Assembly (NCBI RefSeq): GCF_000719265.1
Contig: NZ_JOFL01000018.1
Coordinates: 62,001-126,000 of the forward strand
DNA from: Streptomyces roseoverticillatus
Lineage (GTDB): Bacteria; Actinomycetota; Actinomycetes; Streptomycetales; Streptomycetaceae
Length of the DNA: 64,000 nucleotides
Direction: 5' to 3'
Notes under the pieces: model-generated
What the model was told of the DNA's origin: nothing
Databases searched by the model: none
What the model saw: only the letters and a program-made list of their open reading frames with translations
In this document: in pieces, positions 40,148-48,157 of the stretch
How positions within the stretch are numbered: position 1 is the first letter of the stretch
How the letters are laid out: each line of letters opens with the position of its first letter
Made by a program: the position numbers and the translations under genes

Positions 40148-41443
40148 CTATTTCCAGGGGATGTTGAGCCAAGGGCTGGCGGGGTCGGTGGTGAGGATGC
40201 GGTGCGCGTCGAGCATGTCGCCGTACCAGGACCCGAACTCCTCCTCATCGAAGTGGAGACAGCGCCCAAGGATGTACGCCGCGGAGAAGTCATCCCACGA
40301 ACGGTAGGCGGACCGTGCGGCACGGCCGGCGCGGAGCACCGCCTGCTCGGCCTCCTCCAGGGTGCAGAAACGCGCTCCGAGCCCCCAGCGGGCCATGCCG
40401 GAGGCCCGCCCGTAGTCCCAGGCCTCCGTGGTCCGGATGAAGGAGCCCTCCGTCAGCAGTCCGTCCGCGCGGAAGCGGGCCTCGTAGCGGGCGATGCGCC
40501 CGATCATCCGCCGCACGCCCGCGACCTGGGACTCCGCCTCGGCCTCCGACACGCTCCGCCCCTGGGTGACCCCCTCGGCCGTGATCCGGGCCTCCCCGGC
40601 CGCCTCGATGCTGCGCCGCAGCACGCGCTCGGCGCCCTCGCGCCAGTGCTCAAGGGCGACCGGGCCGGCGAATTCCCGGGCGAGCGCGTGCCGGACGCCC
40701 AGGACGAACTGCCACACGTCACCGACCATGTCCGCGTTCAGCAGCCGTTCCTGGGCGCGGAACCAGTCTTCCCGGCTGGTGACGCCCCAGTACTCCTTGA
40801 GCCGGTACCGCTCGTGGTGATAGCCCGTGCCGTGATAGGCCATGGAATTCCACAACTCGCCGTTCTTCACGAACAGCAGCGCCGCGCAGGCCAGCCCGTG
40901 AGCGACCGGCCCGTGCAGGGGCCCGCCCACGTGGAGAGCGCGCAGCCGGCCGCAGTGCGCGTGAGAGTGGCCGCAGGCCCCGAGGGCACTGCGGGCGCGG
41001 TCGTGGTGCTGCTGCCAGACGGCCCGGTGCGCGGGCGTCGTCGGCAGCAACGCCTCACAAGGACTGCCGGGATTGACGGCCAGGAACGGCGGATCGGCGT
41101 CCTCCCAGGCGCGGGCGTACCAGCCCAGGGAATGCGCCACGAAGACCGGGTCGGGGACCGGCGCCGGCAGCATTCCCTCCGTGAACACCGCGAGGCACTG
41201 CGTCCTCGTCTGCGGATTCCAGTACGGGGCGAAGAACACGGAGTCGGGCGCCGCGTCGGCCCGCTGCCGCGAGACCGCCAGGAACAGATCGGTGCCGGCC
41301 AGCACGTCGAAGTAAGCGGGCCAGTCGCCGCGCATCTTCGCTTCGTAGAGGCGGTGCTCGACGTCACTCGGCGCGTTCCATGACGGAACCACGGCCGACG
41401 GCGGCGTGCCGACGGGCCCCTCCCCGGTGTTCACCATGCTCAT
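40148..41443 (-). CDS. DUF1266-containing protein
   Basis: 431 residues, soluble. An N-terminal SseB-like part (about 1-150; LYEAKMRGDWPAYFDVLAGT) is followed by the DUF1266 domain (SREDWFRAQERLLNADMVGD to RSWDDFSAAYILGRCLHFDE, then FGSWYGDMLDAHRIL). ATG 41443 is chosen because TAGAGT stands eight bases upstream. DUF1266 proteins commonly accompany toxin-immunity and effector loci, and this one ends the block beside the RHS region. Function unknown. Confidence 0.87.
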   Translation of the reverse strand: MSMVNTGEGPVGTPPSAVVPSWNAPSDVEHRLYEAKMRGDWPAYFDVLAGTDLFLAVSRQRADAAPDSVFFAPYWNPQTRTQCLAVFTEGMLPAPVPDPVFVAHSLGWYARAWEDADPPFLAVNPGSPCEALLPTTPAHRAVWQQHHDRARSALGACGHSHAHCGRLRALHVGGPLHGPVAHGLACAALLFVKNGELWNSMAYHGTGYHHERYRLKEYWGVTSREDWFRAQERLLNADMVGDVWQFVLGVRHALAREFAGPVALEHWREGAERVLRRSIEAAGEARITAEGVTQGRSVSEAEAESQVAGVRRMIGRIARYEARFRADGLLTEGSFIRTTEAWDYGRASGMARWGLGARFCTLEEAEQAVLRAGRAARSAYRSWDDFSAAYILGRCLHFDEEEFGSWYGDMLDAHRILTTDPASPWLNIPWK

Positions 41444-41970
41444 GGTCGAAAACTCTATCGACTGTGTGATGCGGGGCTGAGGGTTGCCTCCACATGGCCA
41501 TCGGAATACCCGGGCGTGCGGCCTCATCGCTGTCCTCCTCGTGACGCTCGATCGCCCTTAGGGCAGGGCGAGGGACGGGAGATGCGACATGCTGGGGGCC
41601 TTTCACGTGCTGCGGAGAAGCGGTGGTTTGCACCGAGCTCAGCGGAGCAGCGGGACGGTCCGTTAACGCTTCGCCCGAGACACCGTCTTCCAGTCGGGGT
41701 GCGCGAGGAAGAAATCCTGGACTTCCTCCTGGCCTTCGGAAGGGAGTAGAAGCCCCGCACAGCGATATCCAGCTGGTACGGCCCACCGAGCCCTGATTCC
41801 AGTATGCCCGGCCCTGCGTCTCTCGTTGGCAACGCGAAAACGAAGCACATCGGAAATCAGCTTGGGCAGCTCGACGCTAAGCGCTTCGGCGGGCAGCCAT
41901 ACGCCCAGGATTATCCGGCGAAGCGCGAAGCGACGATCTTGCTGCAGAATTTCCTGCTACAGTCGTACGA
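41444..41970. other. Degenerate spacer between the DUF1266 and immunity genes
   Basis: 527 bases with no convincing complete gene. Base composition is lower in GC than elsewhere. A rightward open stretch from about 41828 to the TAG at 41972-41974 encodes KHIGNQLGQLDAKRFGGQ, then YAQDYPAKREATILLQNFLL, and looks like the C-terminal end of a protein with no beginning. Leftward fragments (EGQEEVQDFFLAHPDWK) also look protein-like but have no start or family. Confidence 0.4.
41452..41457 (-). promoter_or_regulatory. Candidate -10 (TAGAGT) of the DUF1266 gene
   Basis: TANNNT hexamer eight bases before ATG 41443. Confidence 0.5.
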
Positions 41971-41974
41971 CTAG
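41828..41974 (+). pseudogene. Orphan C-terminal protein fragment (possible toxin-tip debris)
   Basis: About 48 codons read KHIGNQLGQLDAKRFGGQ...LLQNFLLQSYD and end at a TAG that overlaps the immunity gene stop on the other strand. No start codon, RBS or upstream domain is in frame. The location beside a polymorphic toxin cassette and the low GC suggest a displaced or decayed toxin tip, but the family is not recognised. Confidence 0.35.
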
Positions 41975-42273
41975 GTGCGAAATTTCGCCGTCTCACCCTC
42001 GACGTGAATCATTATCGGCTCGATCTCTTCTCCAGCAGGAACTTCCGGCAGCAGTCGTAGCTCCATGGAGCGGACCTTTCTCATCGACACGGCGATCATT
42101 TCCGGGTCGCCTGACTTCATGGCGCAGGACTGCTCTTCGAAGAACTCACAGACCGACTCCCAGTGCTCGGCAGGGGAGAATCGGCAGATGAACCACGGCT
42201 GATCAACCTCGAGCAGGAGCAGCCTCCCCACGACGGTGCCGTCCTGCATCAATTTCCACGACTTGTTGCCCAT
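41971..42273 (-). CDS. Putative immunity protein of the RHS toxin
   Basis: 100 residues, cytoplasmic, acidic: MGNKSWKLMQDGTVVGRLLL, then EVDQPWFICRFSPAEHWESV. No known domain is recognised. It follows the RHS gene by 42 bases on the same strand, is small, has noticeably lower GC than core genes, and sits exactly where polymorphic toxin loci place the cognate antidote. GAGG precedes ATG 42273. Immunity function is inferred from context only. Confidence 0.65.
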   Translation of the reverse strand: MGNKSWKLMQDGTVVGRLLLLEVDQPWFICRFSPAEHWESVCEFFEEQSCAMKSGDPEMIAVSMRKVRSMELRLLPEVPAGEEIEPIMIHVEGETAKFRT

Positions 42274-42315: not shown

Positions 42316-45300
42316 CTAACGCCAGCCGTTTGCCTCAATATCTCTGACTATTGTCTCCCAGCTGGTCCCGGCAGGCCAGCTCTTGAGGATGGCTTCGGGG
42401 GGAACGGAATGTTTGGCAAGTATTTCGCGATCCCTCAGTGAAGCATCCTTAGCAAAATCAAACATCTCGTGAGGTGTCGGGAGATGTTCGGCCGCGTTGA
42501 TGGTTTCAGAGTTAATCCTGTTGACATCCACCGCGATGATTGGGCGCTCGCCTTTGTTTCCGTATTTGGTAAAGGCGATATCTGGATCCGATGTTAGGGA
42601 TATCCATGGTGAATTATTGTGGCCAACTACATGCTCCCATGGTTGGACGTTTGTATCTGCGCCGGGGCGATGAAGCCCCTCGGCAGGGTCCTCTCCTTCT
42701 TTGAGTGCGCGATACCCCACCCTTGGCGAGTATGGGGTAAGCCCCAGTGGATCCATCCACGTGTAGGGGTTGTGGACGTACATCGCCGGGTTGGGGGCCG
42801 GGGCCAGGCCCAGCGGATCCGGAGAGGTGTAGCGGGCCAATTCCGGGTCGTAGTGGCGGTGGTAGTTGTAGTGGAGGCCCGTTTCGGGGTCGAAGTACTG
42901 GCCCGGGAAGCGGAGTGGGGTGTACGTCGTGCTGTTCTTCGGCCACGTCGTCGTGCCCCAGAGGGTGGAGCGGGTGCGCCACGCCGTGCGGCCTGTCTCG
43001 TCGATCAACTCCGTCGGCGTGCCGACCAGGTCCGTCACGATGGCGAAGAAGCGGCGGTCCACCTCGCGTTGGGGCGCCTCCGCTGCCGAGATGCGTTCCG
43101 TTTGGGCTATCGGGTGGAGGCCCTGGTAGTCCCAGGTCAGGGTGATGGGGTTGGGCAACCCCACGGCCGTGCTGGTTTGTTCAGCAAGCGCCGCGCCGTC
43201 CCACGTGAAGTCCACGCGTTCCGCCACCTCGCCCGTCGCCGACAGGCGTTCCTTGGCTATGCGGCGGCCCAGGGGGTCGTACGCGTAGCGCCAGCGCGTG
43301 CCGTCCGGAGTCACCACCGACCTCAGGCGGTCCTCCGCGTCCCACTCGTAGCGCCACGTGTCCGGCTTCCGCGAGAGGCGGGTCTTCTGCCGTACGACCA
43401 CCCGGCCCTGCGCGTCGTGCTCGTAGCGGATCGAGCCCGCGCGGGATATTCGTGTGCCCGTGTACGTACGCGACCCCTGCGCCTCCGCGCCCGGGTGGCC
43501 CGCCGGCCACGTCGCCTCCGTCTGGTTACCCGCCTCGTCGTAGACGTACCGTTCCTGCCAGTTCGACGCGTTGACCGCCGTCACCCGGCCCGCCGCGTCC
43601 AGGTCGAACGCGCGGGAGCCGTTCGTGACGTCCGTGATGCCGGTGAGGTGGCCGTCGCGCCGGTAGGTGTAGGCGCGGTGCTGGAGGAGTTCCTCCCCGG
43701 CCCCCTCCAGGCCCTGGGACACCAGGCGGCCCACCGCGTCCCACGCCGACGACAGGGTCAGGCCCTGCCCGAATCGGCGCGCCACTTCCCGGCCCGCCGC
43801 GTCGTGTTCGACCTCGAAGACCTGCCCGGAAGCGGTCAGCGACGCGCGCCGTCCCGCCGCGTCGTACGTCCACGTGCTCACCGCCCCGCCCGGCGTCACC
43901 CGGCGCGTGCGCCGCCCGAGCGCGTCGTAGGCGAAGGTCGTCGTCCGATCGTTCACCGTCTCGGCCTTGATGCGACCGGAGCGGTCCCGGCTGTAGACAA
44001 CGGTCGCGTCGGGACCGCACGCCTCCACCAGGCGTCCTGCCGCGTCGTGCACGTACGTCGTCTCCGCGCCCGCCGCGTCCTTCCGCACCACACGCCCCAG
44101 CACGTCGTGCTCGTACGTGATCGTCTCGCCCAGCCCGTTCGTACGGGAGACGAGTCGTCCCGCCGCGTCGTGCGCGTATGTCAGCGTCCGGCCGTCGAAG
44201 TCGGTCTCGGCGGCCGGACGCCCGGCCGGGTCGTAGACGTAGTCCCAGGTCAGGCCCTGCGGGTTGGTGACGCGGGTGAGCTGCAGGCGGGTGTTGTGCG
44301 TGAACTCGTGGCACACGCCGTCCGGGCCGATCCGCGCCGTCAGGACGTCGAAGGGCCCGTACTCGTAGCGCGTGACGCCGCCGAGGGCATCCGCGTGCGC
44401 CGTGCAGTTGCCCTCGCCGTCGTACGTCCACCGTTCCTCGGCGCCGTCCGCGGCGATGCGCCGCGCGAGCTGCCCTTCCACCGTCCACGTCAGGCGGGTC
44501 GTGGAGCCGAGCGGGTCGATGACGGTCGTCACGCGGCCGAAGGAATCCCGGCGGTAGCAGGTGACGGAACCGAGCGGGTCAGTGATCGCGACCGGGAGGC
44601 CCGCCCTATTGCAGGTGATGCGGGTGGTGTTACCCAGGGCGTCCGTCACCGAAGTGAGGTTGCCGAGGGCGTCGTACGCGTAACGCGTCTCCGCGCCCGA
44701 AGGGCCGGTCGTCGATGTGCGGTTGCCGGCTGCGTCGTACGCGTGCCGCCACACCGTTCCGTCCGCACCGGTCGTCGTCTCGGGCAGGCCGAGGGCGTCG
44801 TACGTGGCCGCGATCCGCTTCCCGTCCGGACGGAACACCTCGGCCAGGCGCCCCTCCTCGTCGTAGCGGAACTCCGTCCTGTGACCCAGGGGGTCCGTGT
44901 GCGAAAGAAGACGGTTGTGGCGATCCCAGGTGGACTGCGTAGTGGCACCCGAGGGATCAGTGACGGCCACGATCTGCGAGCGCCGGTTGATCGTGTAGGT
45001 AGTCGTGTGGCCCAGCGCGTCGGTCACCTTGGTGACGCGCAGGCCGCCGTCGTCAGGGGTGCCGTACGCGAGGGTGCACCGCATGTGCCCCTCTGTCCCC
45101 GACTCGAAGACGCAGCGGTCCTTGTCGTCGTAGGCGTATGTGTAGTGCGTGCCGTTCCGGTCCGTCCACGATGTCATCCGGCCGCGCTCGTCGTAGCCGA
45201 AACGCAGCGGCTGCCCGGAGGAGTTGAAGACCTTCGTGAGGCTGCCGGCCTCGTCGTAGCCGTAGCGGATCAGTTCCGTGTCGTCAGCCAGGTGCAGGGC

Positions 45301-47073
45301 GGTGATGCGGCCCGCCTCCGCGTCCGTGGTGATGCGGAGGCGGTAGCCGCCGGAATGGGCGAGCGCGGTGGGCGTGCCGTCGGCGTCGTACTCGTACGTG
45401 ATCCAGTGGCCGTTGCGGTCGGTCAGCTGGCGCAGGAGCGCCTCATGACCGGCCGCCCCGTGCGGAACGAAGTGCCGTGTCCGGCCCGTCTCCGGTTCGG
45501 TGACGGCGTACGCGCCGTCCGCCTCGATCGCCAGCGGCCATCGGGGGCCCTTCGCCGGCAGTGTCGGCACACCCGCGACCGGATGCGGGTACTCCAGCAG
45601 CCGCCCGTGCTCGTCGACGAAGATCACGCCCTCGTCGTCGATCTCCAGGCGCTGGTCGACGGTGCTCGCCCACGAGGGGCCGAACCAGCGGCCACAGTCG
45701 TAGCCGGACTTCACATGCCGGGAGAAGACCAGGGGAAGGCTGCCGGGCAGGGCGACGTCCGTCTGCGGAAGGAACATGCGGCCCGTTGCGATATCCACCG
45801 GGTCCGTAGGGCCGGTTTCCGCCGTCTGGGGGGCGTGGTTCGGCTCCTCCCGGTTCTCCCTGGCCGCGCGCCGCGCCGCCCCCTCCTCACCTGCTCGCGC
45901 CCCTGCCCGAGCCCCCGCCCGCGCACCGATCTCCGCGCCCTCCCTCGCCGCCCCCGCCCCGAAGCGCGTACCAGCGCCCGCGGCCCCACCGCTGGGCAGG
46001 GACAGGAGGAAGTTGCCGAGGAGGCGTCCCCCGGCCTCGGACGGGTCTGACCCCCAGCCGGGGCCGAGGAGCGCCCCCGGAATGCGCTCCGGGTGGGACG
46101 CGAGGGAGATGAGGCCGGCAGCGGTGTTGCTGACACCGTTGAGGTACTCCGCGGGGTGGGTGACGTTGTACGGGTCCAGCGGGTTCATGCTGCGGCCGAA
46201 CTTCACCAGGTCCGTACCGGCCCGGAAGACGCCGCCGCCGAAGTGGAGCAGCTCGACCTGCCCGCCCTGGGCGAAGTCCTGGGCGTCGTTCTTCATGCGG
46301 GTGTGGAAGGCCGGCTCCTTCGGTGCCGCCTCCACCGCCTTGTCGATCTTCGCTTTGGCCTCGCCCGCCGCCGTGTTGCGCTGCTTGCGCGCCTCGTCCA
46401 GGATGCGATGGGCTTCCTTGATGTCGGCCGCACCGGGGTCGTGGAACTCTCCCGGCCGCTCGCCCGGGTCCTTGCCGTCCTTCAGCTTCGCGTTGTACGC
46501 GTCGACCTTGTCGTTGTGGGCGTCGGCGGCCTCCTTCGTGGCCTTCTTGCCCTGCTTGTAGAGGCGGATCGCCTCCAGCGCCTGCTTTTGCGCCCAGCGG
46601 ACGGTGTGCGCGTACGAGGTGAGAGCGTTCGCGGCGTGCTCGCAGGCGTCGGCGGCCTGCGCCCACTTCTTCGCCTCCGGGGCGATATGGGTGTCGAACG
46701 ACTTCGCGCCCTCGCCCTTCCACTCCCCGGAGTGGACCCGCTGAAGCCCGGAGTGGGCGGTGTTGAAGGCCTTGTGGAAGGCGTGCAGGTGCTTGGCGGC
46801 GGCCTCGATGCCCCAGGGCTCGCCGTGGACCAGGGCCAGCGGGTTCTCGGTCTGGCCGAGCTGCTGTTCCTTGATCTCGGCGCCGAGTTCCGAGGCCGTG
46901 CGATCGCCCAGGTACCGGACGGCGAGCGCCTCGTCGTGCGCGCCGATCTTGTCGAGGGCCTTGGCGGCCTTGCCCGCGCCCCACTCGACGGCTTCGCCGG
47001 CTTTCTTCTCGACCTTGTGCACGCCCTTTTCGGCCAGCTCGCCGATGGCGTCGATCGGGTCCCAGAGGCCCAT
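42316..47073 (-). CDS. RHS-repeat polymorphic toxin with ADP-ribosyltransferase-like tip
   Basis: 1585 residues. The N-terminal ~300 is helical with a WxG-like GEWKGEGAKSFDTHIA, suggesting type VII-type export. DUF6531 starts near 420 (DPVDIATGRMFLPQTDVALP). YD/RHS repeats run from about 510 to 1390 and close with the core motif RYTSPDPLGLAP. The last 140 residues (after MDPLGL; bases 42319-42738) are a variable tip. It has a possible R-S-E triad: GYRALKEGE, WISLTSDPDIAF and LRDREILAKHSVPPEA, which fits an ADP-ribosyltransferase fold. GC falls across the tip. ATG 47073 overlaps the stop of the WXG-like gene by one base, so the two proteins are made together. Confidence 0.88.
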   Translation of the reverse strand: MGLWDPIDAIGELAEKGVHKVEKKAGEAVEWGAGKAAKALDKIGAHDEALAVRYLGDRTASELGAEIKEQQLGQTENPLALVHGEPWGIEAAAKHLHAFHKAFNTAHSGLQRVHSGEWKGEGAKSFDTHIAPEAKKWAQAADACEHAANALTSYAHTVRWAQKQALEAIRLYKQGKKATKEAADAHNDKVDAYNAKLKDGKDPGERPGEFHDPGAADIKEAHRILDEARKQRNTAAGEAKAKIDKAVEAAPKEPAFHTRMKNDAQDFAQGGQVELLHFGGGVFRAGTDLVKFGRSMNPLDPYNVTHPAEYLNGVSNTAAGLISLASHPERIPGALLGPGWGSDPSEAGGRLLGNFLLSLPSGGAAGAGTRFGAGAAREGAEIGARAGARAGARAGEEGAARRAARENREEPNHAPQTAETGPTDPVDIATGRMFLPQTDVALPGSLPLVFSRHVKSGYDCGRWFGPSWASTVDQRLEIDDEGVIFVDEHGRLLEYPHPVAGVPTLPAKGPRWPLAIEADGAYAVTEPETGRTRHFVPHGAAGHEALLRQLTDRNGHWITYEYDADGTPTALAHSGGYRLRITTDAEAGRITALHLADDTELIRYGYDEAGSLTKVFNSSGQPLRFGYDERGRMTSWTDRNGTHYTYAYDDKDRCVFESGTEGHMRCTLAYGTPDDGGLRVTKVTDALGHTTTYTINRRSQIVAVTDPSGATTQSTWDRHNRLLSHTDPLGHRTEFRYDEEGRLAEVFRPDGKRIAATYDALGLPETTTGADGTVWRHAYDAAGNRTSTTGPSGAETRYAYDALGNLTSVTDALGNTTRITCNRAGLPVAITDPLGSVTCYRRDSFGRVTTVIDPLGSTTRLTWTVEGQLARRIAADGAEERWTYDGEGNCTAHADALGGVTRYEYGPFDVLTARIGPDGVCHEFTHNTRLQLTRVTNPQGLTWDYVYDPAGRPAAETDFDGRTLTYAHDAAGRLVSRTNGLGETITYEHDVLGRVVRKDAAGAETTYVHDAAGRLVEACGPDATVVYSRDRSGRIKAETVNDRTTTFAYDALGRRTRRVTPGGAVSTWTYDAAGRRASLTASGQVFEVEHDAAGREVARRFGQGLTLSSAWDAVGRLVSQGLEGAGEELLQHRAYTYRRDGHLTGITDVTNGSRAFDLDAAGRVTAVNASNWQERYVYDEAGNQTEATWPAGHPGAEAQGSRTYTGTRISRAGSIRYEHDAQGRVVVRQKTRLSRKPDTWRYEWDAEDRLRSVVTPDGTRWRYAYDPLGRRIAKERLSATGEVAERVDFTWDGAALAEQTSTAVGLPNPITLTWDYQGLHPIAQTERISAAEAPQREVDRRFFAIVTDLVGTPTELIDETGRTAWRTRSTLWGTTTWPKNSTTYTPLRFPGQYFDPETGLHYNYHRHYDPELARYTSPDPLGLAPAPNPAMYVHNPYTWMDPLGLTPYSPRVGYRALKEGEDPAEGLHRPGADTNVQPWEHVVGHNNSPWISLTSDPDIAFTKYGNKGERPIIAVDVNRINSETINAAEHLPTPHEMFDFAKDASLRDREILAKHSVPPEAILKSWPAGTSWETIVRDIEANGWR

Positions 47074-47687
47074 CAGCCGCGCTCCTCCGGCATGCCGCCG
47101 TCCAGCTTGTCGGCGAGCTTGTTCGCCGTGTCCGTGCCCTGACGGCCGAGCGGGCCCTTGCCGAAGCCGTTGGCCGCGCCGGTGGAGGCGTCGCGGAGGG
47201 TGTTCGCCCAGACCTGGCGGCTGTTCTCCCCGGCCTTGCGGAAGGACTCGGCGCTGTAGTCCGGGTTGCGGAAGTCGTTGACGGGGTTGTCGGCGAGGAT
47301 CTCGCTCATGGACTTCTTCTCGACGTCCTCTTCCAGTAGGTGCGGGTTGCCCATTGCGGCGTTCACGCCGACCTTGAATGAGTCCCGGATGTACACGTCC
47401 TGCTCGTGGTAGTAGCCCGCGGCGAGGCCGACCCGCTCGGCGAACTGGCTGCCGTCGTGGACCAGGGCACGGATGCCCCAGTCCCACCGGTTGCAGAAGG
47501 TTTTGAAGGCGGCGGCCAGCCCCTCGTGGCCCAGTTCCACGCCGCTGAGGGCGAGTTCGTCGAAGCCCCGGCCCACGGCCGCCTCACCGGGGGTACCGAG
47601 GGATTTGAGCTCGCCTATGGCCTCGTTGATGCCCTTGGCGACGTTGTCGAGCGCGGCCGAGTCGGCGGCGAGGTTGGGGTCGTTCAC
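47073..47687 (-). CDS. WXG-like helical partner of the RHS toxin
   Basis: 204 residues, almost all helical: LAADSAALDNVAKGINEAIG, then FKTFCNRWDWGIRALVHDGS. The first 100 residues resemble WXG100-type helical hairpins used by type VII secretion, but no strict WXG is present. It starts on a GTG inside the preceding stop (GTGA) and ends inside the toxin start (TGATG), so three genes are coupled. Probable export partner or chaperone of the toxin; inferred. Confidence 0.75.
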   Translation of the reverse strand: MNDPNLAADSAALDNVAKGINEAIGELKSLGTPGEAAVGRGFDELALSGVELGHEGLAAAFKTFCNRWDWGIRALVHDGSQFAERVGLAAGYYHEQDVYIRDSFKVGVNAAMGNPHLLEEDVEKKSMSEILADNPVNDFRNPDYSAESFRKAGENSRQVWANTLRDASTGAANGFGKGPLGRQGTDTANKLADKLDGGMPEERG

Positions 47688-48097
47688 GCCGCACCCTCAG
47701 CGTCCGTGTCCGCATCAACGGCGTACGCGTCCGGCACGATCCCGACCACCGGCGGGAACAGCACGGGCTGCGGGCCGCCGACATCGAGCACGACGCCCGC
47801 CGGTACGCCGACCGCCGGCACGACCACGTCCAGCAGCCGCGCGCCCAGCACCGTCCGGTACGCACAGTCCGCCGTCCCGTCAGCCCCCTGCGCGAGCGCG
47901 AACCGCCCGAGGGCCGCCTCGTCCGTGAACGCGTAGATCCACCGGATCCCGCCGTACTCGGCCGCCGGCAGGTCACCCTGACCGTCCGTCGGTACCAGCA
48001 CCGCCGTCCGCCGGAACCAGCCCACCAACGCGGCCGGCCGCCCCTCCTCCGCGTACAGTGCGCGGATTTCGTCCCTCAATGCCGTCGATGACGTCAA
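47684..48097 (-). CDS. SseB-like protein at the head of the toxin operon
   Basis: 137 residues from TTG 48097 with GGGGAGG six bases upstream. Pattern RPAALVGWFRRTAVLVPTDG, then GIRWIYAFTDEAALGRFALA and a final LDVGGPQPVLFPPV matches the SseB N-terminal domain common in Streptomyces next to secreted effectors. A TTG further upstream (48130) lacks an RBS. It is probably an adaptor or regulator of the secretion unit; role unproven. Confidence 0.78.
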   Translation of the reverse strand: MTSSTALRDEIRALYAEEGRPAALVGWFRRTAVLVPTDGQGDLPAAEYGGIRWIYAFTDEAALGRFALAQGADGTADCAYRTVLGARLLDVVVPAVGVPAGVVLDVGGPQPVLFPPVVGIVPDAYAVDADTDAEGAA

Positions 48098-48157
48098 CTC
48101 TCGCCTCCCCAACCCAGAGGAAGGGTACAAAATGAGGCCAGAGGTGCACTCACGGTA

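Follow-up and report, generated by a model that had tools for sequence, protein, structure and literature searches.

An RHS toxin of Streptomyces roseoverticillatus with a predicted ADP-ribosyltransferase tip related to DUF7587 and RhsF-CT

ADP-ribosyltransferase (ART) tips are established components of polymorphic toxins. They were catalogued in 2012, when the Tox-ART-RSE class was described as R-S-E tips of RHS and type VII secretion system (T7SS) toxins, Actinobacteria included, with the tabulated motif RxDxR, S, [DN]xN, E (Zhang et al. 2012, PMC3482391). A relative of the protein studied here, RhsF-CT of Chromobacterium violaceum, was solved in 2026 with RhsFi (PDB 9zdm, PMC13324451). RhsF-CT is an antibacterial tip of the type VI secretion system (T6SS) that transfers ADP-ribose to RNA in vitro. 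Replacing R1403, Y1456 or E1497 with alanine abolished its toxicity, S1445A reduced toxicity in part with lower protein levels, and the all-helical RhsFi plugs its pocket (PMC13324451). RhsP2 of Pseudomonas aeruginosa is an Rhs ART tip with an R-Y-E active site that modifies RNA and requires for RNA binding a basic surface including K1574, two residues before the Glu (E-2); its Y1524A variant had lowered activity and still killed E. coli (PMC12340436). Tne5 of Pluralibacter gergoviae, an ART-fold Rhs tip with a downstream immunity gene, hydrolyses NAD(P); K1392 matters in part and E1482A has little or no effect (PMC13285283). Against this background, we analyzed a stretch of 64,000 nucleotides from Streptomyces roseoverticillatus (contig NZ_JOFL01000018.1, positions 62,001 to 126,000; hereafter the window), which contains an RHS toxin gene ending in a 140-residue tip. 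Coordinates are those of the window.

42316..47073, minus strand: RHS polymorphic toxin gene, 1585 residues, start as in homologue P0002
42739..42768, minus strand: PYTWMDPLGL (residues 1436-1445), the autocleavage-type motif PxxxxDPxGL, preceding the tip
42319..42738, minus strand: toxin tip with predicted ART fold, 140 residues, with a C-terminal helix at 127-137 (sequence and model)
42709..42711, minus strand: Arg10 of the tip, aligned with RhsF-CT R1403 (profile alignment)
42631..42633, minus strand: His36 of the tip, kept in 25/26 tips
42598..42600, minus strand: Ser47 of the tip, aligned with S1445 (profile alignment)
42562..42564, minus strand: Tyr59 of the tip, aligned with Y1456 (profile alignment)
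42424..42426, minus strand: Glu105 of the tip, the presumed catalytic Glu, aligned with E1497 (profile alignment)

The initial annotation had read the end of this protein as an R-S-E ART tip. The strings on which it relied, GYRALKEGE, WISLTSDPDIAF and LRDREILAKH followed by the stop, are all present in the minus-strand frame 42316-42738, and the tip comprises residues 1446-1585, the last 140 of the frame when the start is placed at 47073. Structure prediction with fold comparison, which that annotation had named as the check, returned an ART fold and not an unrelated one. In the model, R10 lies in the strand at 7-11, S47 in the strand at 45-49, and E105 is the first residue of the strand at 105-109, which gives the R-S-E order: Arg in strand 1, Ser in strand 2 and Glu starting a later strand. 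The Rhs tips TreX and TreTu of Xenorhabdus bovienii (PDB 8s2m, 9gco, 8s2n) are close structural matches to this model. We regard the ART fold as near certain.

The lone tip found nothing useful among the PDB sequences. A profile built from 11 tips (A1) matched one chain only, 9zdm_B (E 5.4e-12, profile positions 3-109). In this alignment, R10, S47 and E105 of the tip correspond to R1403, S1445 and E1497 of RhsF-CT, and Y59 corresponds to the essential Y1456, which refines the R-S-E reading (RhsF-CT numbering uses an offset of 1387 derived from the profile alignment). The triad is conserved beyond chance: among 26 aligned tips, S47 and E105 are each present in all 26 and R10 in 25; this alignment includes RhsF-CT, and its rows are 19-90% identical to the window tip. 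We then counted the same sites in 60 further homologues, proteins of 71-258 residues (a range set by the A1 protein search), considering only sequences that have a residue there; two of the 60 share 90% identity or more with a row of the 26-tip alignment. The Arg was present in 37/37 (23 do not reach the site), the Ser in 58/59 and the Glu in 56/57. Two positions that the initial annotation had not named are also kept: H36 (25/26 tips, 52/53 homologues) and an aromatic residue at position 59 (Y or W in 19/26 tips; Y, F or W in 56/60 homologues). Some conservation is expected, since the homologues were gathered by similarity. By analogy with the mutated relative RhsF-CT, a catalytic role of the R-S-E residues is well supported, whereas an essential role of the Tyr calls for caution because RhsP2 Y1524A still kills E. 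coli.

We examined the family to which the tip belongs. Scanned alone, the tip matches Pfam PF24494 (DUF7587) with 31.4 bits against a cut-off of 27; inside the full protein the match reaches 26.1 bits, just below that cut-off. The initial annotation had not recognised the tip as a described toxin family; it does match DUF7587, to which Pfam assigns no function. All 11 tips of A1 matched PF24494 at E≤1, and the printed stretch of RhsF-CT gave no match to it. In our literature search, no paper mentioning the name DUF7587 turned up, and the RhsF-CT authors report that their protein matched nothing by BLAST or by motif. Judging by the listings of the surveyed literature, two results are new: that DUF7587, RhsF-CT and the actinobacterial tips are connected, and that four neighbour families, described below, match the tip groups. 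Sources of the 60 homologues include Streptomyces, Actinopolyspora, Nocardia, Paludibacterium and Paenibacillus, the Paenibacillus member being a fragment that ends before the Glu site; none of the protein names listed for the 60 mentions ADP-ribosylation.

The tip is a rare, patchily distributed module. Another strain has a tip 90% identical to that of the window, and a tip on a plasmid of Aliiroseovarius shares 37.6% identity across 78% of the query. Of 394 Streptomycetaceae genomes, 11 had a PF24494 match (E≤0.001): the window, eight other tips at the C-terminus, an internal domain (L010) and a match below the cut-off with a stop (L019). A1 matched 21/392 Streptomyces genomes, weak matches included, in a draw overlapping the Streptomycetaceae one, and 1/396 genomes across the phylum. 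A second tip profile (A2), searched against genome contigs, recovered two loci, from S. exfoliatus and Pseudonocardia eucalypti. The P. eucalypti locus (L022:1-12414) holds a frame of more than 4100 residues, open at both locus ends, with an ART-tip-like domain that is interior rather than C-terminal. The plasmid of Aliiroseovarius crassostreae (L076:1907-5169) carries a short RHS-core gene bearing a tip of the DUF7587/RhsF-CT-like family; this gene lies just downstream of a 10-kb gene annotated with an SpvB/TcaC N-terminal domain and five small genes come after it.

Downstream of the tip lies a small gene, and both differ in base composition from the rest of the toxin gene.

41971..42273, minus strand: candidate immunity gene, 100 residues, predicted alpha/beta, 42 bases downstream of the toxin gene

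The tip has a guanine-plus-cytosine content (GC) of 53.4% and a third-codon-position GC (GC3) of 54.3%; the candidate immunity gene with the gap has 58.0%, with a GC3 of 77.0% in its frame. The RHS body has 70.8% and a GC3 of 91.1%, and none of 131 RHS body windows of the same length falls below 65.7%. The tip begins at the DPLGL boundary, and its family also occurs behind RHS carriers, with pretoxin-HINT domains (PF07591) and inside the giant Pseudonocardia frame. From composition, boundary and varied carriers, we therefore read the tip and candidate immunity gene as a putative horizontally acquired module. In S. exfoliatus (L021:6793-7667), frames that look transposase-like by eye directly follow the tip and its candidate immunity gene, an arrangement that fits a mobile cassette. 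Between the candidate immunity gene of the window and a DUF1266 gene (40148-41527), positions 41528-41970 have 62.5% GC and no convincing gene, and are possibly a remnant.

The candidate immunity protein has no match in Pfam or NCBIfam. Its model, with a predicted local distance difference test (pLDDT) value of 86, has no convincing PDB match; P0005, a homologue with 78% identity, lies on a contig equal in length to that bearing P0002. Downstream proteins at 27 tip loci fall into four families (phmmer, E≤1e-3) that match the tip groups at 25 of the 27. Group A contributes 4/4 loci (the window, S. exfoliatus and two others) with neighbours of about 100 residues, group B 9/9 with neighbours of 99-106 residues, and group C 7/8 with neighbours mostly of about 100 residues (L035 lacks a member of the neighbour family). 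In group D (5/5; L036, L037, L040-L042), the neighbours are larger than in the other families, at about 260 residues. L038 has no family neighbour. L034, L035, L039, L041 and L042 were assigned to tip groups by eye rather than by their place on the tree.

On a maximum-likelihood tip tree with 21 labelled rows, the four labels require three changes, the minimum possible, compared with a mean of 11.4 for shuffled labels (0/200 as low as 3), although near-copies help any label to cluster. Groups A and D each form one side of a branch (100/99), and C does so less firmly (89/80). B alone does not (two changes; one side of a branch in 16% of bootstrap trees), because A branches from beside it. The deep joins are unsure owing to long branches (L038, L022, RhsF-CT and others). 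The gene after the Aliiroseovarius tip, the first of the five small L076 genes, matches family B at E 3e-5 and, more weakly, family C at 0.01 (in a very small database), so these two neighbour families may be distantly related.

The closest members of the candidate immunity family (E<1e-33) are those of the window, G827, G352 and G856; three adjoin group-A tips and one is L053. In L053 (1-1794), a gene that by eye resembles the C-terminal part of an RHS protein and bears an unrelated tip precedes a 119-residue protein, after which comes a close relative of the candidate immunity protein; the stretch before that tip resembles, again by eye, that of the RHS protein of L012. This arrangement is perhaps an immunity array.

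The remaining features are those of the rest of the toxin gene and of the genes upstream of it.

46312..47031, minus strand: N-terminal T7SS secretion signal domain (PF21725; Pfam, E 5.1e-85)
45589..45804, minus strand: DUF6531 (PF20148; Pfam), which precedes the RHS repeats
42739..45588, minus strand: RHS repeats and RHS-associated core (Pfam; NCBIfam TIGR03696 ending at 42739)
47073..47687, minus strand: 204-residue protein, candidate secretion partner by position, with a stop/start overlap (TGATG) onto the toxin gene
47684..48130, minus strand: SseB-like protein (PF07179; 23.6 bits, cut-off 21), the next gene upstream

The listed open reading frame of the toxin extends upstream to a GTG at 47487; the start of P0002, which is 87.6% identical across the entire length, is equivalent to 47073. 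The frame ending at 42316 is intact. Pfam finds 20 RHS repeat stretches plus the RHS motif in the protein, and PxxxxDPxGL, the motif named in PMC13324451, occurs in a single copy with its last residue at 1445. The protein thus has a T7SS signal domain, an RHS shell, a cleavage motif and a variable tip, and tips vary among carriers. The 204-residue protein has no Pfam match, and two EccC ATPases score over the cut-off on other contigs of the host genome. Together, the signal domain, the overlapping 204-residue protein, the SseB-like gene and the EccC ATPases suggest that the toxin may be exported by type VII secretion.

We consider it likely that the locus encodes an RHS toxin delivered by the T7SS, with an ART tip and immunity encoded by the neighbour. 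As an interbacterial polymorphic toxin, the protein would be directed to the type VII secretion system by its N-terminal domain, and the RHS shell would enclose the 140-residue tip and cleave it off. In the cytoplasm of a competitor, R10, S47 and Y59 would bind NAD+, and E105 would catalyze the passage of ADP-ribose to an acceptor. The 100-residue protein would protect the producer, probably by plugging the NAD pocket. Of this reading, the computations show the fold, the correspondence of residues, the composition of the cassette and the group-matched neighbour genes, whereas secretion, cleavage, enzyme activity, acceptor and immunity are inferred. Several observations weigh against parts of this reading. 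The DUF7587 match spans profile positions 59-142 only and does not include the Arg strand. Y59 is not general, with Q in four and P in three of the 26 rows. The candidate immunity family occurs in 114 of 392 Streptomyces genomes and is not tied to toxins; its members include L053-L070, Streptomyces proteins of about 100 residues, and of 25 family loci scanned in six frames (DNA up to 1.5 kb each side), 21 had no ART tip. The other four (the window, G827, G352 and G942) all belong to group A. Because this family is common and often stands away from tips, the candidate immunity protein was probably recruited from a broader family, itself without an assigned function. The residue at E-2 is D103 in the window and varies in the family (D, A, S, Q and others). 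In ART proteins, the E-x-E or Q-x-E residue at E-2 is used to read the acceptor type; this rule is inapplicable here because the position varies. An RNA acceptor is likewise not to be assumed, because the window tip is acidic, unlike RhsF-CT.

Among the possible activities, we rank transfer of ADP-ribose onto some macromolecule first. RNA is a possible but doubtful acceptor. It is favored by RhsF-CT, an RNA-modifying enzyme in vitro and the sole PDB sequence match, and by the RNA-modifying R-Y-E tip RhsP2, but charge points the other way. By sequence charge, a rough guide, the RhsF-CT stretch has a net charge of +7 (isoelectric point (pI) 9.3) and the window core -6; all seven rows of the window clade carry a negative net core charge (-1 to -10, pI 4.4-6.4), and 16 of 17 rows of groups B, C and D are net positive. 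RhsP2 also needs its basic surface with K1574 where the window has D103, yet RhsF-CT has D there too. The window clade has a C-terminal extension (helix 127-137 in the window model), which the B, C and D rows lack.

A tip that merely hydrolyses NAD(P), starving the target as Tne5 does, has that ART-fold precedent, and its acidic surface, together with an E-2 residue that is not fixed, would be consistent with there being no defined macromolecular acceptor. We nevertheless find such a glycohydrolase improbable: the Arg and Glu are nearly invariant in the window family, whereas Tne5 depends only partly on its Lys and hardly on its Glu, and the nearest solved relative transfers ADP-ribose to RNA. 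No NADase title appears among the 50 matches listed, which is no proof. Patchy distribution and deviant base composition could also indicate a degenerate or inactive tip, but the frame is open, every key residue is kept, a 90% identical tip exists in another strain and the neighbour gene is retained, which makes inactivity very improbable.

More tentatively, and with rather less than even confidence, we propose that DUF7587 is a broad ART toxin family of Actinomycetota and Pseudomonadota whose tip-plus-immunity cassette moves between carriers, that its partner gene was replaced by one from another family on three or more occasions, and that the acidic, C-terminally extended clade of the window gave up RNA for a new acceptor, probably protein. 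The analysis as a whole gives the unnamed family DUF7587 a likely function and places RhsF-CT, for which its authors report no BLAST relatives, alongside dozens of further tips and fragments in one family. Basic and acidic groups built on one active site offer a natural contrast for what decides between RNA and other acceptors.

Compared with known systems, the window tip shares with the Tox-ART-RSE class its general type, R-S-E ART tips in RHS and T7SS toxins. TreX and TreTu were missed by the sequence profile and are 18% identical to the window tip in structural alignment. The pocket of Tne5 is K/E, whereas the window tip has Arg, not Lys. RhsP2, whose structure has been solved but whose sequence A1 did not match in the PDB, is likewise an Rhs ART tip with R-Y-E as its reported active site; it differs in its RNA target and in the basic surface around E-2 (K1574 versus D103). 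RhsF-CT stands closest: like the window tip, it is an Rhs tip after PxxxxDPxGL with a small downstream gene, the R-S-Y-E correspondence and the profile relation given above. It differs in using the T6SS with a FIX domain instead of a T7SS signal, in being basic rather than acidic by sequence charge, in ending 16 residues past E1497, too short, judging by lengths, for the C-terminal helix of the window tip, and in its all-helical RhsFi, in contrast to the predicted alpha/beta neighbour of the window.
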